From Oscillospiraceae bacterium (GTDB lineage Bacteria; Bacillota; Clostridia; Oscillospirales; Oscillospiraceae): DNA of 52,578 bases. The stretch spans positions 1-52,578 of the forward strand of contig JAFUMG010000057.1 of NCBI GenBank assembly GCA_017473225.1, given 5' to 3'. Positions 991 to 12,764 of this stretch are shown here, piece after piece. Position numbers and translations under genes: made by a program. The stretch's first letter is position 1. Each line of letters opens with the position of its first letter. A model generated the notes under the pieces. It worked only from the letters and a program-made list of their open reading frames with translations. It made no database searches and was not told the DNA's origin.

Positions 991-1956
991 TTGAAAAAGC
1001 TGGCAAATCGCTGTATTTTCGCTTTGATCTCAATATTATTTCTATCGTCAGGCGCTTCGGCGGCGGAGTATCTGATCCCTGTGGGCCGGGTGGTGGGGCT
1101 GGAGCTGTCCCAGGGCAGCGTCACGGTGGCCGCCTTTGACGACACGCTCCCCGCCGCCAAAAACGCCGGCCTTCATGTGGGCGACGAGATCCGCGCCATT
1201 GACGGCCGGGATGTGGACTGCGCCGAGGATGTCCGCCGGGCGCTGGACCATTCCGACGGCACCGTGGAGTTGACCATCTCCCGGGGCGGAAACGAAAAGA
1301 CCATTTCCATGGAGCCGGAGGTCACCGCCGACGGTCCCCGGCTGGGCGTCTATCTGCGCCAGGGCATCACCGGCATCGGCACCGTCACCTGGTACGACCC
1401 GGAAACCGGCGCCTTCGGCACTCTGGGTCACGGCGTCAACGACGGGAAGGGGAATCTGCTGACCATGAGCAGGGGCCTGGCCTATCCCGCGTCGGTGGTC
1501 TCTGTACAAAAGGGAAGATCCGGCCATCCGGGGCAGCTGAAGGGCGCGCTGTCCAGCGACCGGCTGCTGGGCACCCTCTCGGGCAACACCGCCCAGGGCG
1601 TCTTCGGCACCGCGCCTGACGCCTGGGAGGGTGAGCTGATGGAGGTGGCCTCCTACAGCGACATCCGCGCTGGCGAGGCGACCATCCGCTCCACCGTCAC
1701 CGACGGGGAACCCCGGGATTATTCTGTGGAAATTCTGAAAATCTATCCCCAAAGCCGCTCCGACGGCCGTAATCTGCTGCTGAAGGTCACCGACCCGGCG
1801 CTGCTGGAAACCACCGGCGGGATCGTGCAGGGGATGAGCGGCAGTCCCCTTATACAAGATGGGAAGCTAATAGGAGCCGTGACCCACGTTTTGGTCAATG
1901 ATCCCACCACCGGCTACGGAATTTTCATTGAAAACATGCTTGATGCAGCTTCATAA
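991..1956 (+). CDS. spoIVB: SpoIVB stage IV sporulation serine peptidase (3' end supplied by the integrated element)
   Basis: A 321-residue protein with a signal anchor (about residues 5-24), a PDZ domain (about 30-110) and an S55 peptidase domain. SpoIVB is secreted by the forespore and cleaves the SpoIVFA complex to activate pro-sigma-K processing in the mother cell. H147 in LGHGV and S283 in GMSGSP fit the catalytic residues. The TTG at 991 is chosen because AAAGGAGGG precedes it and it starts the signal sequence. The codons for GMSGSP form the recombination core of the integrated element. The 40 residues from S283 on, plus the downstream terminator, therefore come from the element, and the original 3' end is displaced to 12643-12764. 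The hybrid protein keeps full length, so function is probably preserved. Confidence 0.93.
   Translation: MKKLANRCIFALISILFLSSGASAAEYLIPVGRVVGLELSQGSVTVAAFDDTLPAAKNAGLHVGDEIRAIDGRDVDCAEDVRRALDHSDGTVELTISRGGNEKTISMEPEVTADGPRLGVYLRQGITGIGTVTWYDPETGAFGTLGHGVNDGKGNLLTMSRGLAYPASVVSVQKGRSGHPGQLKGALSSDRLLGTLSGNTAQGVFGTAPDAWEGELMEVASYSDIRAGEATIRSTVTDGEPRDYSVEILKIYPQSRSDGRNLLLKVTDPALLETTGGIVQGMSGSPLIQDGKLIGAVTHVLVNDPTTGYGIFIENMLDAAS
1835..1847 (+). repeat. Left attachment core (attL)
   Basis: TGAGCGGCAGTCC encodes part of the SpoIVB catalytic GMSGSP motif and is repeated exactly at 12643-12655. Base composition shifts from GC-rich to AT-richer right after it. Confidence 0.8.
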
Positions 1957-1963
1957 TCGCCAA

Positions 1964-1996
1964 AAACCACCGATTTTAGAAAAAATCGGTGGTTTT
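1964..1996 (+). terminator. Intrinsic terminator after spoIVB
   Basis: A perfect 14-bp stem AAACCACCGATTTT pairs across a short A-rich loop with its complement and is followed by TTTT. It belongs to the element and supplies transcription termination for the hybrid spoIVB. Confidence 0.85.
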
Positions 1997-2068
1997 ATCG
2001 GTTATAAGCCTCATCATTTGCCGCTGGACTTGCACTCAAAATAAACCCTCAATAAACATATTTTCATA

Positions 2069-2098
2069 TACCAGCAGTCCGCCCTATACAAGTGGTAT
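2069..2098 (+). promoter_or_regulatory. Dyad resembling the attL arm, upstream of the recombinase
   Basis: ATACCA (2069-2074) and TGGTAT (2093-2098) are inverted. Between them GCAGTCC, a 3-bp gap and CTATACAAG repeat the arrangement found in the attL right arm (1841-1856, GCAGTCC then CTTATACAAG). The site lies about 90 bp upstream of the recombinase start, next to a TATACT box, so it may be a recombinase-binding or autoregulatory site. This is an inference from similarity only. Confidence 0.4.
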
Positions 2099-2186
2099 CT
2101 TTTATGATATACTATTATAAAAGAATTTGACTATTCTGACGTCCATCTTATACAATATCAATCATCAAAGGAAGGAGAGTCCAGCT

Positions 2187-3869
2187 ATGGCAAGAAAGTC
2201 CCGCTATGCAAATAATATCCCAGATATTGCTCTTATGACCAGGGCATATACAAACCGAACGGGTATCTATGCCCGTATATCCCGTGCTGACGGTGATTCC
2301 ACCAGCGAATCCATCAAAAATCAGATTCAGATTTGTCAGAAGCATATCCATATGAGCGAGGATCTTGTTTGTGTCCAGATATATCAGGACGATGGGGAAA
2401 GTGGTCTGGATTTCGATCGTCCCGGATTCAGGAAAATGATGAACGATATTCATGACGGCACCATAAATTGTGTGATTGTAAAGGATGTATCACGCATCGG
2501 ACGGGACTATATTGATGTTGGAAAGCTGCTTCTTCAGGACTTCCCTCAAATGGGTGTGCGCTTTGTTAGTGTAAATGACAATTATGATAATGTTAATGAT
2601 CAAGATGGCCTTTGGAGTTTAGATCTCATTCTGAAAACGGTACTGCATAACTGGGAATCCAAGTCAACTTCCCAGCGAATTATCACTGCCATTGAGGCAA
2701 AGGTCCAAAGAGGCGAATATCTGCCTGCATCCGGAAGCATACCTTATGGCTATCTCAAAGATGCCGAAAATAAAACCTATACTCCGGATCCTGAAACGAT
2801 TCCAGTGGTACAAAAGATTTATACCTTATTCTGTACCGGCATGACTTATACAGAAATCGCCAAACAACTGAATTCAGAAGGGATCCCCTGCCCGGGTAAG
2901 CTGAAATATCTTCGCGGCCACTCCAAGAATTCCAAGTACGCAGATGCACTTTGGAACCGGAAAACAATTCGGGAGATTCTCTGTGATCAGGTTTATATTG
3001 GCAACCGCGTTCATGGGAAGATGAAGAAATCTGCACCTGGGAAAAATAAACAGTACACTTCTGAAGATGATTGGACAATTGTTTTCAACACGCATCCCGC
3101 TATTATTTCTCAGGAACAATTTGCTGCCGTACAGGATATCATTTCCAACGGGCACACAGATTCTCCTGAACAAAGCAAACGACCGGATGCAGCACCCAGC
3201 CTTAAGGATGTTTTGCTTGAGAAACTGGTTTGCGCAGATTGTGGAGAGCCCTTGTATGCTGACAAACGATGTTCCCGGGCAGCTTCCAATACACCCAGTC
3301 AAATCTACTATCAGTGCAGAACTTACAAGAAATCTAAGCGGACCCAATGCAGCAACCATTATCTCACAGATTCAGTGCTGACAGAAATCGTTGATCAAGC
3401 AATATACTACAATACCAACTACATTCTGAACTCTGATGTCTGCTGCCAAATTGTATCCGATTGTGAGAACAGTCTGGAAACACTGAAGTGGAAAATCCAC
3501 TCTCTTCGGCAAAAGTTGGAATGTCTGGATCGTGAGACAGACCGTCTCTTCGTTAGCTATACCGAAGGAAGCCTTAATTCGTCTGCATTCAAACAACAGC
3601 ACGCAATTATTAAGGAGGAACGGAATAATACAGAGAAATGGTTGGATCAAATCATTGCCGAACGTAAAAAAACAGAACAAAACTACTATTCCATGCAGTT
3701 CTGCCGACAAGGATTTATCAATTATGCTACCACCCATGAGCTGACGAAGGACATAGCTGATGTCATGATCGATCGAATTGAAGTACACGCCAATAAAGAT
3801 GTTGTCATCTACTTCAAATTCAAAGGTGTACAATTTACGGATACTTCCTCTAAAGAAGGTACTGTATAA
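2187..3869 (+). CDS. Large serine recombinase (resolvase/recombinase/zinc-ribbon type)
   Basis: A 560-residue site-specific recombinase that presumably integrates and excises this element. The N-terminal resolvase domain (about 25-170) has the catalytic-serine motif YARIS and IVKDVSRIGRDY. A recombinase domain (about 190-310) contains YGYLKD and IREILCDQVYIGN. A zinc ribbon follows (CADCGEPL near 349, YYQCRTY near 375, TQCSNH near 386). After it come a probable coiled coil (about 430-500) and a C-terminal tail. It resembles the TndX/TnpX group. ATG 2187 is preferred because GGAAGGAGAG is 7 bp upstream; a frame from 2127 adds 20 unlikely residues. The gene sits next to the attL site, as usual for serine integrases. 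AT-richer codon use than the surrounding host genes indicates acquisition. Confidence 0.93.
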   Translation: MARKSRYANNIPDIALMTRAYTNRTGIYARISRADGDSTSESIKNQIQICQKHIHMSEDLVCVQIYQDDGESGLDFDRPGFRKMMNDIHDGTINCVIVKDVSRIGRDYIDVGKLLLQDFPQMGVRFVSVNDNYDNVNDQDGLWSLDLILKTVLHNWESKSTSQRIITAIEAKVQRGEYLPASGSIPYGYLKDAENKTYTPDPETIPVVQKIYTLFCTGMTYTEIAKQLNSEGIPCPGKLKYLRGHSKNSKYADALWNRKTIREILCDQVYIGNRVHGKMKKSAPGKNKQYTSEDDWTIVFNTHPAIISQEQFAAVQDIISNGHTDSPEQSKRPDAAPSLKDVLLEKLVCADCGEPLYADKRCSRAASNTPSQIYYQCRTYKKSKRTQCSNHYLTDSVLTEIVDQAIYYNTNYILNSDVCCQIVSDCENSLETLKWKIHSLRQKLECLDRETDRLFVSYTEGSLNSSAFKQQHAIIKEERNNTEKWLDQIIAERKKTEQNYYSMQFCRQGFINYATTHELTKDIADVMIDRIEVHANKDVVIYFKFKGVQFTDTSSKEGTV

Positions 3870-3935
3870 ATGATTTATCATTTCGATCGTGAAGTTCTTG
3901 TTTAATGCTTGCCTTGAACTTCTTTGGTCGAACAG

Positions 3936-4063
3936 AAAGGAGGGGCATGAAAGCCAGCGGATACTCAAATATTAAGCAAATACACATCTAGTTCCAAGGC
4001 TTCGTGCCAATCCCTATATTGACCACACAATATGACCAACCATCCGCTGGTTCGCCCTCCTTT
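3936..4063 (+). promoter_or_regulatory. Long-range hairpin that would sequester a Shine-Dalgarno site
   Basis: AAAGGAGGG (3936-3944) pairs with CCCTCCTTT (4055-4063), and CCAGCGGAT (3954-3962) pairs with ATCCGCTGG (4042-4050). Nested inside is the hairpin ATATTG/CAATAT (4016-4033). The first arm is a strong ribosome-binding site in front of a 14-codon ORF. The layout resembles a translational-attenuation leader. This structure explains most of the 410-bp gap between the recombinase and the next gene. Confidence 0.45.
3947..3991 (+). CDS. Possible 14-residue leader peptide (MKASGYSNIKQIHI)
   Basis: ATG at 3947 follows AAAGGAGGGG at an ideal distance and opens a 14-codon frame ending in TAG at 3989-3991. 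The ribosome-binding site is itself paired in the surrounding long hairpin. It resembles no peptide I know. The placement is suggestive; whether it is translated is unknown. Confidence 0.3.
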   Translation: MKASGYSNIKQIHI

Positions 4064-4231
4064 TCAAGTTCTTCGTTCCATCTTTGCTTGCTATATTTTG
4101 TTGACTATCAACGTGATAAACCAATATGATTCATGCTAATAAATCCTTTTTATTTTTACAAATATTCATTTAATTCCGAATTTTAAATGATTAACGCAAA
4201 ATAATTTGTCAAAAAATTATTGCATTTATTA

Positions 4232-4259
4232 TTGACTGTGAATATAATATTTATATCAT
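4232..4259 (+). promoter_or_regulatory. Probable promoter of the AlbA_2 gene
   Basis: TTGACT (4232-4237), a 16-bp AT-rich spacer and TATCAT (4254-4259) stand 20 bp upstream of the start codon. The motif ATTGACTGTG here (4231-4240) recurs at 5761-5770 inside the repeat pair upstream of jetA. Confidence 0.45.
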
Positions 4260-4279
4260 AATTCTATAGAGGTGATTCT

Positions 4280-5743
4280 ATGCCTTTTGCCGCAAATAGC
4301 ATTGCTGCCATCATAAATGAAGCACGAAGCAATTCCAGTGAATTGCCTTGGATCGAGTTTAAGACTAACAACGCAGATCCTCAAACCATCGGTGAATATG
4401 TCAGTGCAATGTCAAACACTGCAGCCCTTTTTGGAAAAGCGCACGCTTTTTTGATTTGGGGTATCGATGATGTTACTCATGATGTTATCGGAACAGACTT
4501 CAAGTATGACAAACGGAAAGTCGGACAGCAGGCATTGGAACTTTGGATATCAACGCAGCTCCAGCCACAGGTTCAGATTTATTTCCATGACACGACTATT
4601 GACGGCAAACATGTTGTTTTGCTGGAGATTAGTCCCGCCTTTGCTGAACCCGTAAAATTCAAAGGCGTTGACTATATCCGAATCGATTCGCATAAGAAAA
4701 AGCTGAAGGATTTCCCTGATACCGAACGAGAATTGTGGTCCATTTTTACCCGGAAACCTTTCGAGTCAATGATCGCCCTGGAAAATGTTCCTGGCGAACT
4801 GGTTCTTCGTTATTTGGATTATCCTTCATATTTCGACTTGCTATCACTTGATATCCCCAGCACAAAGGACGGTATACTCGAGCAGTTATTAACCGAAAAA
4901 CTAATTGTCAAGGACGAAACTGGGGCATTTAATATCACAAACCTCGGTGCCATTCTTTTTGCTCGCCGCCTTAGTGATTTTCCGTCTTTGGAACGAAAGG
5001 CTATCAGAGTTATCAAGTATACAGGAAACAACCGAATTGCTGGTGCTAGCCGTGAGCAAATCGGTGGCAAGGGATATGCCAACGGTTTTGAAGGACTTAT
5101 TAATTATATCAACGGTTTGCTTCCTGTGAACGAGGTTATGGGAGCCGCACTTAGAAAAGATGTTCCGATGTACCCCGAGCTTGCCGTCAGAGAAGTTGTA
5201 GCCAATGCCATTATACATCAGAATTTCTTCTTAACGGGTACAAGCCCGGTTATTGAGATATTCGATAATCGTATGGAGATTACCAATCCCGGTATCCCCC
5301 TTATTGATAAAGAGCGTTTTGTTGATCATCCTCCTGTTTCCAGGAACGAAATGCTTGCATCGTTTATGCGGAGAATCGGCGTTTGTGAGGAACGTGGCAG
5401 TGGTTTTGATAAGGTTGTCGCTCAAACCGAAGCCTTCCAATTACCTGCACCTGAAATCGAGCTCTATGATAACAGTACACGCGTGACCTTGTTTGCACAT
5501 AAGACCTTTTCGGAAATGAGCCGGGAAGATCGGCTGCGAGCATGCTATCTGCATGCATGCCTGAAGCGCGTCAACAGAGAATATTTAACCAATGCATCCT
5601 TGCGTGAGCGTTTCCAAATTGATGTTAAAAATAGCTCCATGATATCCCGCTTGTTAAATGATGCATGTAAGTCCGGATTAATAAAGATGGTAGACGAAAC
5701 AGTCGGTGCAAAAAACAGAAGATACCTTCCTTATTGGGCTTGA
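4280..5743 (+). CDS. AlbA_2 (Schlafen-like) domain and HATPase protein
   Basis: A 487-residue protein. The N-terminal AlbA_2 domain (about residues 15-130) has the conserved WIEFKTN and HAFLIWGIDD segments. The C-terminal GHKL-type ATP-binding region (about 295-400) contains ELAVREVVANAIIHQNF, IEIFDNRMEITNPG and EERGSGFDKV. A winged-helix-like end follows (about 430-487). Proteins of this architecture (COG2865) are widespread on mobile elements; they are annotated as putative transcriptional regulators or RNA-binding proteins, and some act in phage defence. The start at 4280 has AGAGGTGAT upstream. Its place between the recombinase and the Wadjet genes suggests accessory or defence cargo. The domain call is firm; the biological role is unknown. 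Confidence 0.85.
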   Translation: MPFAANSIAAIINEARSNSSELPWIEFKTNNADPQTIGEYVSAMSNTAALFGKAHAFLIWGIDDVTHDVIGTDFKYDKRKVGQQALELWISTQLQPQVQIYFHDTTIDGKHVVLLEISPAFAEPVKFKGVDYIRIDSHKKKLKDFPDTERELWSIFTRKPFESMIALENVPGELVLRYLDYPSYFDLLSLDIPSTKDGILEQLLTEKLIVKDETGAFNITNLGAILFARRLSDFPSLERKAIRVIKYTGNNRIAGASREQIGGKGYANGFEGLINYINGLLPVNEVMGAALRKDVPMYPELAVREVVANAIIHQNFFLTGTSPVIEIFDNRMEITNPGIPLIDKERFVDHPPVSRNEMLASFMRRIGVCEERGSGFDKVVAQTEAFQLPAPEIELYDNSTRVTLFAHKTFSEMSREDRLRACYLHACLKRVNREYLTNASLRERFQIDVKNSSMISRLLNDACKSGLIKMVDETVGAKNRRYLPYWA

Positions 5744-5750
5744 GTTTTTG

Positions 5751-5876
5751 TTGACTGGCAATTGACTGTGCAGTTTTATATAGTTCATATTTCTCAATAT
5801 TAATTGCAATTTCGACACATTTTATGAGATTTCTCACCTTTTTACCCCATAATAATTATTGACGGGCAATTGACTG
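5751..5876 (+). repeat. Pair of 18-bp direct repeats upstream of jetA
   Basis: The near-identical units 5751-5768 and 5859-5876 (17 of 18 bases match) each read TTGAC-GGCAATTGACTG with T or G at one position. They start 108 bp apart in the 360-bp gap before jetA. They could be operators or paired promoter elements, because TTGACT also resembles a -35 box. Apart from these, the hairpin at 5883-5916 and a weak promoter region, nothing else is recognised in 5744-6104. Confidence 0.6.
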
Positions 5877-5882
5877 ACCTAA

Positions 5883-5916
5883 GGCATCCCGCTTTATTAA
5901 TATCAAGCGGGATGCC
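5883..5916 (+). terminator. Perfect 12-bp hairpin, terminator-like without T-tract
   Basis: GGCATCCCGCTT and AAGCGGGATGCC pair perfectly around a 10-nt AT loop. There is no U-run on either side, so it could be a weak terminator, a processing element or an operator. Confidence 0.45.
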
Positions 5917-6104
5917 CACCGATAACAACCGACAGCAGCCAATACTCTACAAATAGATTATAGTCAATTTCATTTATTTACTTCTTTGTTCGTTCGGTCC
6001 CTTTTATTGGACATACTCAGAGATATATTACACATAAGATCATAAGATCAACAGACAACAGCTTACGATTAGCTTATTTCAGAAAGAGACAGGAGGCCCA
6101 TTAT

Positions 6105-7595
6105 ATGGCACTGGAAGCACGGTATTTAGAGAGCGTTCCGCAAACTAAGTATTTATCTGCTGAGAACTATGTCAGCTACCGGGCCATTATGCGTATTTTC
6201 TATCAGGAACACCAAAAAATGCATTATCAGTTGGACAAACAGACGATCATGGGTGAACTGCGCCAAGATCGTCTGTTTTCTACATATACCGATCAACAAT
6301 TGTCTCAAGACTTGGATCAGCTGATAAAGTGGAAAAATCTGACTGCTATTCAAGATCCGCGAAAGGTAAGAACTGTAGCGGATTTCCAAAACAAACAGTA
6401 CCAGTATATGATGTCTCAGGCTGCGTTGGAAATTGAACGCATGACAATCACTTTAGAGAATCTCTACACGTATACAACAGGGCTGACATCCAGTTCTTTC
6501 CGCCGTATTCAGCGTGCGCTGGATAAGATTGAAAAACTTGACCAAATGTCTTTGAAAGACATCGGTGATTGGTGGCAAGACCTGCAGGAAGACTTCTCAA
6601 GGCTCAGTCAGAGTTATCAGGACTATCTCCGAGAATTTTATGGCCCCAGTGCTGAGAAATACATGAAGTCTGAAGACTTCATTGTGTATAAACGCCATTT
6701 GATAACATATCTGGAAGAATTCGTCCAAGATCTTCAAAGCAGCTCTGCCCAAATAAGTGCACAGCTTGAGTACATATCTTCAGACACGACAGAAAAGCTT
6801 TTGAATCTGGTACATCAAAGCGAACTCGATATCCCCAGGCCTCTATCTGAGAAAACTGACCACTGGCAAGATGAACTACGGATGAAGAACGAAGGCGTGT
6901 GGCGTTCGCTGATTGGCTGGTTTTCCGGAAGTGATTCAACAGCACGGCAAGTAATGGAAGTTACAAACGAAGTTATCCGTCGTGTTGTTCAGAACGCTGC
7001 TATGCTGGTGCAAATGCAGAATATGGGCGTAAGCAACAAGGCAGAGCTACGTCACATCATGAAGCTGTTTTCTGAAACGCCTTCGTTGGATGAGGCACAT
7101 AAACTCTCTGCTTTGGTATTCGGCGCACAATATGCAAGGCATTACGTTGTTAATTCGGATCGGGATACTGACCGTATTGACAAAAGCTGTTTTCAGGAAG
7201 TTCCTATGGAGTTTTTATTACGGCCGCGCGAACGGACATATCGTCCGTCTATAGATCGGAGCGGATTTGCGGACAAGAGCGCAGACAAAAAGGAACAGCG
7301 CAGGCGCATCTTGGAAAATACTCAACGGCTGCGCGCAGAAGTAATGGGACATATACGCAATAAAAAGCTTGACTTTGCTCACTTAGAGACGCCTGTGACG
7401 CCAGAGGTCCGAACTGTCTTTTTGTCATGGCTGGCCATTGCAAATCTAAGCCCCGATAAAAAAGGCTCAACGGAATACGGCCAGCACTATTCATTAAAAT
7501 CCAGAGGTAAAGGAACCTGCACTATGGTTTGCACGGATGGAAATCTGACACTTCCGGATTGTGTGTTAGAATTTGAGGATGATGTAGATGCATGA
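6105..7595 (+). CDS. jetA: Wadjet JetA-like protein (TIGR02677 / DUF2397)
   Basis: A 496-residue protein, full length for this family. Visible family features include YVSYRAIMRIFYQEH near residue 25 (winged-helix region), DQLIKWKNLTAIQDPRKVRT near 80, a long helical middle with coiled-coil character, and a C-terminal basic segment KKEQRRRILENTQRLR. JetA is the kleisin-like subunit that bridges the SMC protein JetC and the JetB subunit in Wadjet, a complex that extrudes and cuts small circular plasmids. The ATG at 6105 follows AGGAGG. The stop overlaps the next start by 8 nt, so translation is probably coupled. The partner SMC gene is missing downstream. The family is clear; plasmid defence is doubtful without JetC. 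Confidence 0.85.
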   Translation: MALEARYLESVPQTKYLSAENYVSYRAIMRIFYQEHQKMHYQLDKQTIMGELRQDRLFSTYTDQQLSQDLDQLIKWKNLTAIQDPRKVRTVADFQNKQYQYMMSQAALEIERMTITLENLYTYTTGLTSSSFRRIQRALDKIEKLDQMSLKDIGDWWQDLQEDFSRLSQSYQDYLREFYGPSAEKYMKSEDFIVYKRHLITYLEEFVQDLQSSSAQISAQLEYISSDTTEKLLNLVHQSELDIPRPLSEKTDHWQDELRMKNEGVWRSLIGWFSGSDSTARQVMEVTNEVIRRVVQNAAMLVQMQNMGVSNKAELRHIMKLFSETPSLDEAHKLSALVFGAQYARHYVVNSDRDTDRIDKSCFQEVPMEFLLRPRERTYRPSIDRSGFADKSADKKEQRRRILENTQRLRAEVMGHIRNKKLDFAHLETPVTPEVRTVFLSWLAIANLSPDKKGSTEYGQHYSLKSRGKGTCTMVCTDGNLTLPDCVLEFEDDVDA

Positions 7596-9636
7596 ATTTC
7601 GATCTTTATTAGACCGTTTTTGGATTACAAAGGCAGAAACCAAAGAACTGTATTATCTACTTAAGCGTACACAGCCAGAATATAAGCGTTTTCTGAACGA
7701 ACAGCTCGGATGGAACTTAATTGTAAATGAATCCGTAATCAAATTGGAGAAAGTACCTCCTAAAGCAATGCCATGGATGGGAATACAGGAGTTCAACGAT
7801 ACTATGGACTACTGCTTACTTTGCGCGTTGCTGCTCTACTTATCCGATCTGGACGATGAAGAGCAGTTTCTGCTGTCCTCTCTTACAGAAGCTGTTGAGA
7901 CTTTCACAAAAGATGTTATTTTTGTGGATTGGACAAGATTTACTCACAGGAAATCGATGGTTCGTGTTTTACGGTATGCACAGAGCATCGGACTGATTCT
8001 GGTATACGATGGCAGCAGCGAGAACTTCAGCAATAATCAAGAGCAGGAGGTCCTTTACGAGAACACCGGTTTGTCACGCCATTTTCCTGTTCATTTCGGA
8101 CGAGATATTATGCATTGCAATACTGTATCCGACTTTGAAGCTTTCTCCTGGGAAGGCGAAGACGCTGATCGCGGTAAGAAAAGGGTAAATCGTTGCTATC
8201 AGCAGTTGGCTTTGATGCCCGCAATGTACTGGTCAGAAGACAACCGTGCAGATTATGAGTATATAAAGAATCAGAGGCCTTGGGTATCAAAATACCTGGA
8301 TAATGCCATTGGCGGCGAATTACACATCCATAAGAACGGTGCATTTTTTGTGGCAATGGAAGACAGTCGTTTTGGAATGTTGCATCCACGTGATACAGCA
8401 CTGTCGGATGCGGTATTGATGCTTTGTACACAATTGAGGCAAAAAATTAACGATGGACTTTATTCCAGGGAAAATGACGATACCGTTTGGTTAGGTATGC
8501 GTGATTTTCGGAATGAGGTTCTGAGTTGTAAAGCCAACTGGGGCAATGCCTGGGGCAAAGGACTCAGGGAAGAGACGGATGACAGTTTTGTTGAAAAAAT
8601 CATGAAATATATGTTTGATTGGATGCTATTGGAACCGATCGATGGTGCAATTCTTCTGTATCCATCTATTGGTAAATTAAACGGCTACTATCCGGATGAT
8701 TATAACCAGCGCATAGAGGAGGGAAATCATGGAACAGTGGAAGATGCATATCTGCTTTTAATCAAAGAAATGTCAAGAGATTTACAATCCACAACAACAA
8801 GCGTGTGTAAAGCACTTTGGGCAATGGATGAGTTGGAAAATCGTTCTGGTTCTATGCTCCGCCTTGCTGTTTTTAGCGCTCAAGCAACGACCGATCCGCA
8901 TGCATTAGATATCGATACACTCTGCGGGCAGTTGTTCTTACATCTTCTTTCTGTGAAGCTGAACCGTCCATATCCTGCAGGGGCTGAGGAGCGGGATGAG
9001 GTGTACTTCGAAAATGGAATCCTGTGTGACAGTATATCGAGTACTGTCACACAAGTAGGTCTTGTTCTGAGAGAACAGCAAGATGAGCATCCTGCCTTCA
9101 AGGAGTTCCGGCAAAGAAATGAATGCTGCACACTATCTCTAACAAATTTGAACAATATTTCTTCAGCAGCAAGTCCTTCAGGAAAAGCATATCTGATTGA
9201 AAACCAAATGTTGTTTTCTCAGCTCTGTGATCAGGCTAAAGATTTCCATTCCCCATTGATCTGTACATCAGGTCAGCTCCAAGTTGCAGTATTGCGGTTG
9301 CTGGACATGTTGGTTGCTTCCGGAATAACTTTGTATTACGCAGGAGATTTTGATGGAGGCGGTATATCAATTGCTGCAAGACTGCTTGCCCGCTATCCAG
9401 CCAACCTTCATCTGTGGCATATGACTGCGGATGATTATGAGCTTTGCAAATCGGATATCAGTATCAGCGAGAACAGCCGAAGTTTATTAAAATCAGCAAA
9501 TGGTACTATCCTGGAACCCATTGCAAATTTAGTACAAGAAACAGGTTGCGCAGGGTACCAGGAATTGCTACTAGGTAAATTATTGGCTGACTTGCTTGCT
9601 CCTGCATCCGTATCGCCAGAGTTAGTTTTTGTTTGA
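7588..9636 (+). CDS. JetB-JetD in-frame fusion of a Wadjet system (TIGR02678 joined to the C-terminal half of TIGR02679)
   Basis: A 682-residue frame made of two Wadjet parts. Residues 1-380 are a nearly complete JetB (DUF2398): KVPPKAMPWMGIQEF, HRKSMVRVLRYAQSIGLI and the terminal GYYPDDY are recognisable. Residues from about 400 are the second half of JetD (end of DUF3323 plus DUF2399): DPHALDIDTLCGQLFLH, ENQMLF, CTSGQLQVAVLRLLD and YYAGDFDGGG. The Toprim-like acidic residues E538, D587 and D589 remain. Normally jetC, an SMC gene over 1 kb long, and the N-terminal half of jetD lie between these parts. At the junction the jetC ribosome-binding site and start survive out of frame (8715-8761), so an internal deletion is the simplest explanation. 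The frame is fully open, meaning the event is recent or the fusion is kept. Confidence 0.85.
   Translation: MHEFRSLLDRFWITKAETKELYYLLKRTQPEYKRFLNEQLGWNLIVNESVIKLEKVPPKAMPWMGIQEFNDTMDYCLLCALLLYLSDLDDEEQFLLSSLTEAVETFTKDVIFVDWTRFTHRKSMVRVLRYAQSIGLILVYDGSSENFSNNQEQEVLYENTGLSRHFPVHFGRDIMHCNTVSDFEAFSWEGEDADRGKKRVNRCYQQLALMPAMYWSEDNRADYEYIKNQRPWVSKYLDNAIGGELHIHKNGAFFVAMEDSRFGMLHPRDTALSDAVLMLCTQLRQKINDGLYSRENDDTVWLGMRDFRNEVLSCKANWGNAWGKGLREETDDSFVEKIMKYMFDWMLLEPIDGAILLYPSIGKLNGYYPDDYNQRIEEGNHGTVEDAYLLLIKEMSRDLQSTTTSVCKALWAMDELENRSGSMLRLAVFSAQATTDPHALDIDTLCGQLFLHLLSVKLNRPYPAGAEERDEVYFENGILCDSISSTVTQVGLVLREQQDEHPAFKEFRQRNECCTLSLTNLNNISSAASPSGKAYLIENQMLFSQLCDQAKDFHSPLICTSGQLQVAVLRLLDMLVASGITLYYAGDFDGGGISIAARLLARYPANLHLWHMTADDYELCKSDISISENSRSLLKSANGTILEPIANLVQETGCAGYQELLLGKLLADLLAPASVSPELVFV
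8729..8761 (+). pseudogene. jetC: Vestigial 5' end of jetC (SMC subunit) inside the fusion
   Basis: AGAGGAGGG (8715-8723) stands 5 bp before ATG 8729, which reads MEQWKMH and then ICF and a stop. JetC-family proteins of this Wadjet type begin with a similar W-(K/R)-(M/L)-(H/N) followed by RAGL. Homology ends after about seven codons, near 8749, which I take as the left deletion point. The comparison is from memory of the family, not from a search. Confidence 0.7.
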
Positions 9637-9658
9637 TACTCTAATCTCTTTATGAGCA

Positions 9659-9692
9659 AATTGCCCACGGGACAAACGCCGTGGGCAATTTT
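9659..9692 (+). terminator. Intrinsic terminator of the Wadjet operon
   Basis: AATTGCCCACGG and CCGTGGGCAATT form a strong stem with an 8-nt loop followed by TT, about 20 bp after the fusion gene stop. Confidence 0.8.
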
Positions 9693-9923
9693 CATGGATG
9701 GGCATAAAAGGGGCTTTTCTACAAAATGAGTCTGGGATGAAAAGCATCTGGGTTCCTGCAAAAACGTATCAATTGTAAATTCCAGACACACAGCCACACT
9801 TGCACGGCGATTTAGCCACGGTGTCACGGACTTTTAGCCACACTGTCACGGAGCGGTGCCACACCCATTCCGGACTTCAGCCACAATGGTCAGAGGGGCT
9901 GTTATACCCCTCCGACCTGCTTC

Positions 9924-10112
9924 TCAGGCGTTATCCCAGCGGGCTATAATCTTTCTGGATTGCTCATAAATGTCCTGCTCCGTCCATTCGTGGGTCTCAT
10001 CAGGTTCCTCCGAGAACAGTTCCAGGATCTCCTGCTTGGCTTGCTCGACGTGTCGCTTGTTATGGAACCACCAGATATACTCGGTGTCCAGCAATTTACG
10101 GGTAAGAGTCAT
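9924..10112 (-). CDS. Small third gene of the IS21 element (unknown)
   Basis: A 62-residue acidic protein with WWFHNKRHVEQAKQEI near its start and a helical C-terminus (EQDIYEQSRKIIARW). The ATG is one base after the istB stop, with GGGAGGG as ribosome-binding site, so it is translationally coupled to istB and is part of the element. I do not recognise the family. Its placement suggests a transposition accessory or a toxin/immunity-type passenger, but nothing in the sequence decides this. Confidence 0.6.
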   Translation of the reverse strand: MTLTRKLLDTEYIWWFHNKRHVEQAKQEILELFSEEPDETHEWTEQDIYEQSRKIIARWDNA

Positions 10113-10113
10113 G

Positions 10114-10884
10114 TCAACCCTCCCGGCTTCTCAGACCATGACGCTCCCGCATGGAGATTTTGCCGTCAATTAGCACCTCATAGGCGTTGTGGACGATCCG
10201 GTCGAGAATCGCTTCTGCAATGGCACTGCGTTTCTCGGAATTGGGATGGAGACGCTCGTACCAGTCACCCGGCTCATACTGGGTGCAGAAGATCATGGAG
10301 CCTTTATTACACCGGGCTTCAATGACTTCCAGAAGGTTGTAACTCTCCTGCGGTGTCAGGCACCGGATCAGCCATTCATCCAGAATTAACAGATCGTACT
10401 TCTGGTAGCTCTTAATCGCTTTCTTCAGTTCGCCTGCGGCCTGTGCAAGTGAGAGTTCCTCCAGAAGTTCCGGAAGACGTACATATCGCACCGACATCAG
10501 CTTTCTGCAGGCTGCATTGCCCATTGCGCAGGCAAGATAAGTCTTTCCGTTTCCGGACGCCCCCTTGAAAATGATGTGGTGGCCCTTGGAGATAAAGTCG
10601 CAGGTGGCGAACCGCAGAAGCTGTACCTTGTCCAAATGACGGTCTTCATAGTATTCAATATCTTCCACCACCGCGCTGGATTCTGCAAACCGGGCTTCCC
10701 GGATACAACGGATCAGTTTGTTATTCTGGCGGCTGTTCCATTCCGCATCCACCAGAAGAGCAATCCGCTCTTCAAACCCCATGTGGGCATAAGTGGAAGC
10801 ATCCTGCATCTGACGCTCCAACTCTGCTGCCATGGCACCGAAACGCATGGCTTTCAGGGAATCAATCGTAGCGCTATTCTTCAT
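10114..10884 (-). CDS. istB: IstB, ATP-binding transposition helper
   Basis: A 256-residue AAA+ ATPase of the DnaC/IstB group. Walker A is KGASGNGKTYLA near residue 110 and Walker B is LLILDEW near 170; FCTQYEPGDWYERL and ILDRIVHNAYEV are the usual C-terminal motifs. IstB regulates and assists the IstA transposase in target selection and strand transfer. It overlaps istA by 4 bp (ATGA), and it looks intact and full length. Confidence 0.93.
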   Translation of the reverse strand: MKNSATIDSLKAMRFGAMAAELERQMQDASTYAHMGFEERIALLVDAEWNSRQNNKLIRCIREARFAESSAVVEDIEYYEDRHLDKVQLLRFATCDFISKGHHIIFKGASGNGKTYLACAMGNAACRKLMSVRYVRLPELLEELSLAQAAGELKKAIKSYQKYDLLILDEWLIRCLTPQESYNLLEVIEARCNKGSMIFCTQYEPGDWYERLHPNSEKRSAIAEAILDRIVHNAYEVLIDGKISMRERHGLRSREG

Positions 10885-12431
10885 CTGGAGCCACCTCCCT
10901 TCCGGAAGTAGTCAGCTCCACGGGTAATGCCGTGCTGAACGAGTTCTTTGCGTATCTCAGTCTCCTGTTGCCGGTCCTGACCGTTCTTGAGAATGGTACT
11001 CAAGGTGCGGATAGAGGGTGTATTGGAGAAGGACAGCAACCGTTTACAGGCATTTTCCAAACGAACCGGTCCATATCGGTCAGACAGCTTCGTTAGGCTG
11101 GCGCAGTACTTATAGCCTTGTTCGGGTGCCTTTCCGCCAGAGAGAAAATACTTGACCACAGTAGATGCGTTGGGGCCTACAGTACCGGCCCAATCCGTGA
11201 ATTCCTTTTCGTTATAGCTCAGATACATCCGGTGCTCCATGGGCATATGTTCCGGCTTCACCACAGGATCTCGGCGATACACTTTGCTGCGGACGTGAAT
11301 TGCCACACGGCTGCCCCGGAAGAATACCTCCACCGTGTTGGGAGTCAGCCGCAGATTGACCTTTTCACCAATGAGATCATAGGGAACGGAGTACTTGTTC
11401 ATCCCATCGCTGACCAGATAATCGTTGCCCACTTTCAAGTCGGGAGACCAGATGGCCGACTCATAGGGCTCACTAGGCAAGGGCTGCATGAATTCCTTTT
11501 CTTCTTCCAAATAGGCTTCCCGTCGGCTGCCCGGACGCTTCTTGAAGTCCCGTTCATTCAATTCCTCCAGCTTCTCAGCAACTGCGGCCTGCGCTTCTTC
11601 CGCAGAAAAAAACTTCCGACTCCGGAGCGCGGCGAGGATCCATGTGGAGGCGAAGCTGACTCCTCCTTCAGCATGAGATTTGTCTTTGGGGTGCTTCACT
11701 CTGGTGGGTACGATGGCAGTGCCATAATAATCTGCCATCTCCTGGTAGGTTCGATTCAGAACAGCTTCATACCGGGTATTCTTACTGATACCGGTCTTTA
11801 GATTATCCGGAACCAGCAGCCGGGTCACACCGCCGAAATAATTGTAGGCATGGATATGGCAGGAGATCCAGTTCTCCAGCTTCATATCGTCGCAGGCTTC
11901 TGCTTAGGTAAAGCAGCTGCAGGGCAGGACGGCGACGAACAGATATGCCTTGCTGACCTCTCCGGTGACTGGATTATGGATGTCCAGAGTTGCACCGGCC
12001 CAGTCAACCTCCATGGTGTCGCCGGGCTTGTGCTGGATGCGCATGGTTGCCTTGGTCATTCTGGCCCACTGACGGTACTTCTCGCAGTATTGGGTATACA
12101 TATAAGGTACAGTGCCGGCAGTGTTACACTTGGCGCAGTACTCCTCCCAGAGCAAGGTCATGTTCACACCCTTTTTGGCCAGTTCTGCGTGAATATAAGG
12201 ATAGTCCGGCAAAACATAGAGTGACGTTTTCTGATACTCCCCCGGGAACAGCAGTTCCATGAGCATCTCATTCGTAGCATCCTCAGACAACGGCCAGCTG
12301 ATCCCGGCCTTCTGCGCCGCATCCAGAACCTTCCGGATGGTGTGGTGTGAGCTGCGCAATTCCAGTTCCATGGTGCGCATGCTCTTGTGTGGGTCAGAAG
12401 CGACCCTCAGGATATTTCTGTAGTCGAGCAA
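10881..12431 (-). pseudogene. istA: IstA transposase interrupted by one nonsense codon
   Basis: A 516-codon frame with one in-frame TAA at 11906-11904 (codon 176). The N-terminal part has the helix-turn-helix (MRTMELELRSSHHTIRKVL) and the first DDE aspartate in MEVDWAGA. After the stop, reading resumes in the same frame with AEACDDMKLENW, PDNLKTG (second D) and SHAEGGVS (E). IS21 relatives usually read CSCYAYAEAC here; this copy has CSCFT-stop-AEAC, so a tyrosine codon became TAA. The TTG start at 12431 has AGGAGG upstream. Without readthrough the transposase is dead. Confidence 0.9.
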
Positions 12432-12642
12432 ATGAATTCCTCCTCAATAAATGTCACACGGTGTCGTGTGCAGATATCATTATAGAGGAATTATTCAGGG
12501 TGTGGCTCTCCTCCGTGACAGTGTGGCTATTTTCCCGCGAGGGTGTGGCTAAATGTCCGTGCAGATGTGGCTCACCGGGCGGAATTTGCATCAATTTCTA
12601 AAAAAATCACAAAATATGGTTGTCCTTTACTTGACACACTCG

Positions 12643-12764
12643 TGAGCGGCAGTCCAATCATTCAGGATGGCAAGCTGGTGGGTGCAGTGACCCATGTGCT
12701 CGTGAACTCGCCGGATACCGGCTACGGTATTTTCATTGAAAATATGCTGGGCGCGGCATCGTAG
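12643..12764 (+). pseudogene. spoIVB: Displaced original 3' end of spoIVB
   Basis: From the attachment core on, the sequence reads [19 protein letters not shown] and onward to [14 protein letters not shown]-stop. This is the same length as the current spoIVB tail, without stops or gaps. It has GC-rich host codon use. It is the chromosomal 3' end pushed away by the 10.8-kb element and would rejoin spoIVB on excision. It has no start codon or ribosome-binding site. Its TAG stop lies inside the GTAGGGG end of the next repeat. Confidence 0.9.

Follow-up and report, generated by a model that had tools for sequence, protein, structure and literature searches.

A type II Wadjet locus without its SMC gene: an in-frame JetB-JetD fusion that probably reflects a recent deletion

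Wadjet type II systems consist of the proteins JetA, JetB, JetC and JetD (TIGR02677-TIGR02680; PDB 9qe0 and 9qe1, whose source we take, from a reference title, to be Neobacillus vireti). A review, noting that most work concerns type I, describes plasmid suppression as dependent on the full set of four Jet subunits and cleavage as dependent on the JetC ATPase, with JetD probably autoinhibited (PMC10586767). According to two further papers, JetABC and ATP were strict requirements in vitro for the JetD proteins of P. aeruginosa and E. coli, a role as a DNA clamp has been proposed for the N-terminal domain of C. glutamicum MksG (both in PMC10123090), and circular DNA is also cleaved by the type II complex of Neobacillus vireti (PMC12647877). 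In this study we analyzed a locus in a stretch of 52,578 nucleotides (the window; positions 1 to 52,578 of contig JAFUMG010000057.1, assembly GCA_017473225.1, from an Oscillospiraceae bacterium), where jetA is followed by a single open reading frame (ORF), here called jetBD, in which JetB continues into JetD. The locus is a deletion derivative of Wadjet type II; it has no JetC and an incomplete JetD, and so it is not an intact Wadjet. An initial annotation, made from the letters of the window, had recognized a Wadjet locus, to which our profile searches add the type. We consider it very probable that the locus records a recent loss-of-function deletion in a type II operon and not a new kind of defence.

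The frame and coordinates that the initial annotation gave for the fused gene proved exact, and the PADLOC, Pfam and NCBIfam profiles agree on its domains (Table 1). The PADLOC profile JetB2 covers fusion residues 1-377 (profile positions 8-385 of 388, E 1.9e-135) and JetD2 covers residues 386-669 (positions 142-424 of 430, E 1.7e-91), while the Pfam families are DUF2398 at residues 5-365, DUF3323 at residues 388-492, represented only by profile positions 106-207 of 209, and a complete DUF2399 at residues 514-669 (positions 1-152 of 152). The JetB part, first drawn as residues 1-380, is indeed present and fused, and it runs complete to its final codon, residue 387; it passes TIGR02678 (160.8 bits, cut-off 124.65) and matches the JetB of PDB 9qe0 (E 3.5e-55). 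The JetD part fails TIGR02679, with 164.4 bits against a cut-off of 196 and matched positions 110-382 of 382; for comparison, the intact JetD of a relative (L070) obtains 212 bits. Our search of solved structures for a type II JetD returned nothing with a profile and only weak unrelated matches with a single sequence. The Toprim residues E538, D587 and D589, already reported as kept, are identical in 19 of 19 sequences, among 27 such columns of the JetD part, and we take them to be catalytic, following the initial annotation and the literature on JetD and MksG. Upstream, jetA is intact, as had been claimed: JetA residues 2-493 match positions 2-494 of 496 of the PADLOC profile JetA2, and the protein passes TIGR02677 (262.7 bits, cut-off 165.85). 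Its ORF overlaps that of jetBD by 8 bases, and the two genes, jetA and jetBD, stand here in place of a four-gene jetABCD operon. A terminator scan listed none on the + strand, the hairpin of Table 1 included. A 14-pair inverted repeat at 9021-9055 falls within the conserved JetD coding stretch LCDSISSTVTQ and is probably due to chance.

Table 1. Features of the jetA-jetBD locus and of the presumed island that carries it (positions in the window)
Feature	Position	Strand	Details
jetBD fusion ORF	7588..9636	+	ATG at 7588, stop ends at 9636, 682 codons; from reading frame and profile searches
jetA (kleisin; DUF2397 / TIGR02677 / PADLOC JetA2)	6105..7595	+	496 amino acids, open, full length
JetB part (DUF2398 / TIGR02678)	7588..8748	+	residues 1-387, complete through last codon
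JetD C-terminal two thirds	8749..9633	+	second half of DUF3323, entire DUF2399, Toprim acids E538, D587, D589
jetC start remnant	8716..8761	+	GAGGAGGG, resembling a ribosome-binding site, at 8716; ATG at 8729
Deletion junction GATGCATATCTGC	8743..8755	+	jetB stop region to JetD residue ~142
Hairpin	9658..9691	+	21 bases past fusion stop; perfect 13-bp stem; resembles a terminator by eye
Presumed mobile island with the locus	1837..12645	+	G+C content 0.41-0.45 to ~10,000, with higher values in the IS21-like element; two spoIVB 3' tails as bounds
Large serine recombinase	2127-3869		580 amino acids, 170 bases past spoIVB; best NCBIfam XisF and Ccr, both under cut-off
AlbA_2 / HATPase_c_4 gene	4280..5743	+	upstream of jetA, in the same low-G+C island
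IS21-like element	9774-12590		directly after jetBD; imperfect inverted ends 9774-9866 and 12498-12590

The origin of the fusion was examined by comparison with intact operons, which were taken from nine family genomes and nine outside the family; the junction itself was compared with the ten most similar intact relatives (L035-L043 and L070, from family and order). In nine of these, jetB ends with (E/G)PLED(E/A) and a stop, a pattern that the tail of the window's JetB matches, and the same bases double in another frame as the start of jetC, M(x)RWKM(N/H)KLGF(L/V)NFWL. Read from 8729, the corresponding frame of the window is MEQWKMHICF followed by a stop, that is, seven jetC-like codons (MEQWKMH), three codons of jetD-derived DNA and the stop, in agreement with the ribosome-binding site, start codon and approximately seven jetC codons described in the initial annotation. 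The jetB stop has been lost, with GATGCATAA of some relatives corresponding to GATGCATATCTGC in the window, and from Y388 onward (YLLLIKEMSRD) the fusion aligns with the JetD motif GY(x)LL(x)REA at residue ~142 of ~426. All ten relatives carry 4,405-4,444 bases from the stop of jetB to the JetD codon corresponding to fusion residue 386, and these bases are absent here, which supports the deletion that had been proposed and with it the loss of jetC. The missing ~4.4 kb correspond to jetC except for ~7 codons and to JetD residues 1 to ~141, so that JetD has lost about one third (~141 of ~426 residues, with half of DUF3323) and not the first half initially supposed. This lost third holds ten columns (M1 to E72) that are invariant in 18 full-length JetD proteins, M1 being among them as a consequence of the chosen start codons. 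The left breakpoint lies within the jetB stop codon and the right one within the least conserved stretch of JetD, where residues 101-160 have a mean pairwise identity of 0.20-0.28, versus 0.33-0.57 in the rest of JetD and 0.30 in its last six residues. GGATATC is found at the JetD point in two of the ten relatives; if the lost arm resembled theirs, ~3 bp (ATA, 8748-8750) would have been common to both arms. From this comparison we infer one single deletion event.

Our protein searches covered 400 family, 394 order, 398 phylum and 389 class genomes, drawn as overlapping samples, at an E-value of 1e-10 or better. As a result, we identified 98 other genomes matching JetB or JetD (11 family, 6 order, 66 phylum and 15 class), 76 of which carry JetB and JetD apart on one contig, 4.4-5.8 kb from each other (9, 5, 52 and 10, respectively); the other 22 have a single part only, or parts split between contigs. 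None of the 98 has a second JetB-JetD fusion. The initial annotation had proposed that many homologues with the same junction would speak for a new system and a single case for a deletion, and by that criterion the result points to a single deletion. The fusion was also absent from the three loci found in genome_contigs (one of which, L022, ends inside jetC, and two of which are probably the same records as G210:C18 and G368:C27), from 14 plasmid records, none of which has 80% or more of the query in one place, and from viral contigs and phage records. Searching the 136 genomes of the genus with the DNA of the island gave no second fused gene either, a weak negative with the two best candidates per genome scored and spoIVB matches competing, and no JetB-JetD fusion is described in the Wadjet literature that we searched by titles and abstract openings. 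As a separate observation, 14 of the listed phylum-sample matches to JetB or JetD include between one and three stop codons; some of these may read past the end of the gene, and others may be broken Wadjet genes.

Within the window's genus, none of the nine other members in the family draw matches JetB or JetD, and the protein search covered these nine and three more. In two genomes of the genus, G494 (160 bases) and G456 (43 bases), short stretches of DNA match within the JetD part. The second was rejected as a carrier of JetD, its best protein E-value being about 1 and its DNA match looking like chance. In G494 (L047, contig C16, 47-250), the last ~67 residues of JetD are present and 67% identical to those of the window; they start ~47 bases into the contig, and the adjoining DNA is unrelated and has a stop. 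Neither JetB nor TIGR02680 has a match elsewhere in that genome (88% complete). This remnant may be another, more decayed Wadjet, a contig end being a poor place to judge.

It should be considered that the contig might have skipped ~4.4 kb that are present in the organism, through an artefact of assembly or library. The genome (1.78 Mb) leaves some room for this: it is a draft in 97 contigs with 78.6% completeness and 2.8% contamination, and probably a metagenome assembly. Two factors make such an artefact improbable. First, the joint shares only ~3 bases, and the window is free of any N; the word length of assemblers is usually far above ~3 bases, and so the shared bases would be too short for a repeat-driven misassembly. 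Second, the initial annotation had named a complete jetC-jetD elsewhere, joined to this locus, as evidence against its proposal, and no jetC was found on the other contigs of this genome with TIGR02680, a profile with which the intact type II jetC of L071 scores 752 bits; a jetC could be expected there had assembly and binning recovered both versions. The same search bears on a mixed or complemented state, in which part of the population would hold an intact operon, or jetC and a full jetD in the fifth of the genome that the assembly lacks would act in trans. The ~21% of the genome that is missing could accommodate them, but the 1.78 Mb contain no second JetB or JetD and no TIGR02680 match, and among the other members of the genus there are no JetB or JetD matches in the draw and only the JetD tail in G494. 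We therefore regard this state as very improbable.

To evaluate the constraint on the remaining parts, we used two sets, "all" (19 sequences) and "near" (11 sequences), counting only fetched regions and excluding incomplete or partial loci (G056 (L011/L044), G037 (L012/L045), L022 and G592) and duplicates (L023 of L035 and L024 of L036). In the near set, the window departs from the invariant columns at 23 of 204 positions in JetA, 14 of 150 in JetB and 12 of 107 in the JetD part, and the intact and similarly divergent L041 at 24 of 205, 9 of 145 and 4 of 99, respectively; judged on these alignments, JetA has no excess of departures compared with L041, and JetB and the JetD part have a mild one. 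The mean identities of the window and L041 are 0.591 versus 0.626 in JetB and 0.549 versus 0.613 in the JetD part. The ratio of nonsynonymous to synonymous substitutions (dN/dS) on the branch of the window was set aside, since synonymous sites would be saturated at ~60% protein identity.

Several observations weigh against a simple loss of function. At columns without variation among the other 18 sequences, the window agrees in 52 of 52 for JetA, 27 of 27 for the JetD part and 33 of 35 for JetB, where the two departures are M124 for L and C203 for V. With 2 changes in 114 invariant columns, the one-sided Poisson 95% upper limit, calculated by hand, is ~5.5% of residues replaced without constraint; therefore, most of the branch was travelled under constraint, and either the deletion came late or the fusion is still selected. 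The terminal branches of the window (JetA 0.324, JetB 0.382 and JetD part 0.396) resemble those of L041 (0.388, 0.351 and 0.456). Taken from the alignments, JetA, JetB and the JetD part appear to show no clear decay, which fits both outcomes. The junction also seems oddly neat, being in frame, with JetB entire and JetD entered at its least conserved stretch; such a joint would be in frame by chance in one case out of three, and we give these features little weight because they were noticed afterwards, in a case picked as striking. Finally, one study reports that MksG, a relative of JetD, shows slow DNA cleavage in vitro at high concentration when its SMC partners are absent (PMC10123090), so that a nuclease free of the motor is not biochemically absurd.

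These points bear most directly on the possibility of an SMC-free system that has been kept, in which the kleisin JetA and JetBD, as a fusion of KITE and Toprim proteins, would cut or nick DNA, against plasmids or rivals, after the loss of the motor; the KITE/kleisin pair would perhaps serve as a DNA clamp. Such a system would account for 682 open codons after an intact, overlapping jetA, with the catalytic acids kept and almost no invariant residues lost, for a neat junction that leaves JetB complete and enters JetD in a variable stretch, and for the hairpin after the stop of the fusion. Its stoichiometry is also conceivable: in PMC12647877, type II JetABC is written (JetC2JetB1JetA1)2 and JetD is a dimer, so that one JetD per JetB could make the dimer, and the mix used in that work contained two dimers of JetD for each JetABC dimer. 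However, the fusion is a single case, with no counterpart in the 98 other matching genomes; the N-terminal third of JetD is missing together with its ten invariant columns; and, according to the review, plasmid suppression depended on all four subunits wherever it has been tested (PMC10586767). For these reasons, we hold that a functional SMC-free system has only a small probability. The initial annotation had left the choice between a recent ruin and a nuclease that has been kept, and the search for other fusions moves it toward a single deletion, but this choice is not settled by sequence.

Under the deletion that we favour, a type II jetABCD operon on an island with a serine recombinase would have lost ~4.4 kb in one step, the jetB stop codon becoming joined to jetD codon ~142 at a few bases common to both. 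This step would have removed JetC, the SMC motor, together with the first third of JetD, and would by chance have left the open frame from JetB into the C-terminal part of JetD. The deletion is probably young, having occurred late on its branch. JetA and JetBD may still be produced and may bind each other, but they would be motorless, and the nuclease would be without the N-terminal domain that is thought to position DNA and to keep the enzyme inhibited. Because restriction needs the ATP-driven extrusion by JetC to activate JetD, the locus most likely confers no plasmid restriction now. As a deletion, it would represent an anti-plasmid system switched off in one step with leftover proteins that can still be translated, and it is important to consider that profile searches report JetA, JetB and JetD matches although the locus has no motor. 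If the fusion were active instead, a Wadjet nuclease would work without loop extrusion, and the locus would offer a direct test of the model in which extrusion triggers JetD.

Around the locus, the presumed island carries further genes (Table 1). Relatives of its serine recombinase (E 1e-60 or better, 28-47% identity) were found in 11 of 135 other genomes of the genus, and none was found in the seven spoIVB arrays that we fetched and describe below. The AlbA_2 gene upstream of jetA was considered as a Wadjet part and is probably not one, as the flanks fetched for 19 further type II Wadjet loci contain no relative of it. In another genome, G519 (L046, 5318-5404), a spoIVB end adjoins the final 29 codons of a gene closely related to this one (86%). 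The name of the IS21-like element is a reading of its translations alone; its istA-like frame is present as two ORFs on the minus strand, 10881-11885 and 11904-12431, and the element may be broken. The location on an island with its own recombinase is compatible with a dominant-negative decoy, by which the island would keep JetA and a crippled JetBD to poison the Wadjet complexes of rivals, as is the conservation of JetA and JetB while the motor and the JetD N-terminus are gone. Such a function is purely speculative, and Wadjet looks rare in the genus, which would leave little to poison; this explanation we find extremely improbable.

The bounds of the island belong to a wider pattern. In the window, copies of the spoIVB tail lie at 1837-1956 and 12620-12764, and in general the extra copies comprise approximately the last 40 codons of spoIVB, from the SGSP motif, that of the catalytic serine, to the stop, and are located downstream of the complete gene. 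There are 14 of them in the window and the seven fetched loci that have extra tails (L094-L100) taken together, and 10 of these match from residue 282 on; the seven loci were chosen for suspected two tails and are not a random sample, and an eighth, L046, is without an extra tail. The tails inspected are mostly preceded by a TTGTCC-N5-TTGACA-N5-GTG box, and in L099 one full spoIVB is followed by four further tails ~1-1.5 kb apart with small ORFs between them. With one mismatch allowed, the box occurs in 24 of the 136 genomes of the genus at 34 sites, up to 4 per genome, only 7 of which were seen beside a tail; the reversed pattern, used as a control, gave 1 site. From their layout, the arrays look like repeated integration of small elements, each restoring the 3' end of spoIVB, with the island of the window as one such element. 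One literature search on spoIVB, serine recombinase and insertion found nothing. The spoIVB-tail arrays may be a better lead than the jetBD fusion.

When the locus is compared with the known systems, it shares with Wadjet type II the full-length JetA and JetB, the gene order A, B, D and the Toprim acids, and it differs from it in having neither JetC nor the first third of JetD, and in JetB and JetD being one protein. The intact jetABCD operons of Oscillibacter valericigenes An890 (L023) and of genome G809 (L070) are 56-66% identical to the window in protein over the retained parts and have the same jetB/jetC overlap motif, and unlike the window they have a jetC of ~1,350 codons and a complete jetD. 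In a report on Clostridium cellulovorans (PMC12287153), the whole jetABCD was lost spontaneously within 23 kb, and a separate deletion of a cas locus occurred at a 5-bp direct repeat. There, as proposed here, Wadjet genes have gone by simple deletion, with the difference that the window has lost an internal ~4.4 kb only.

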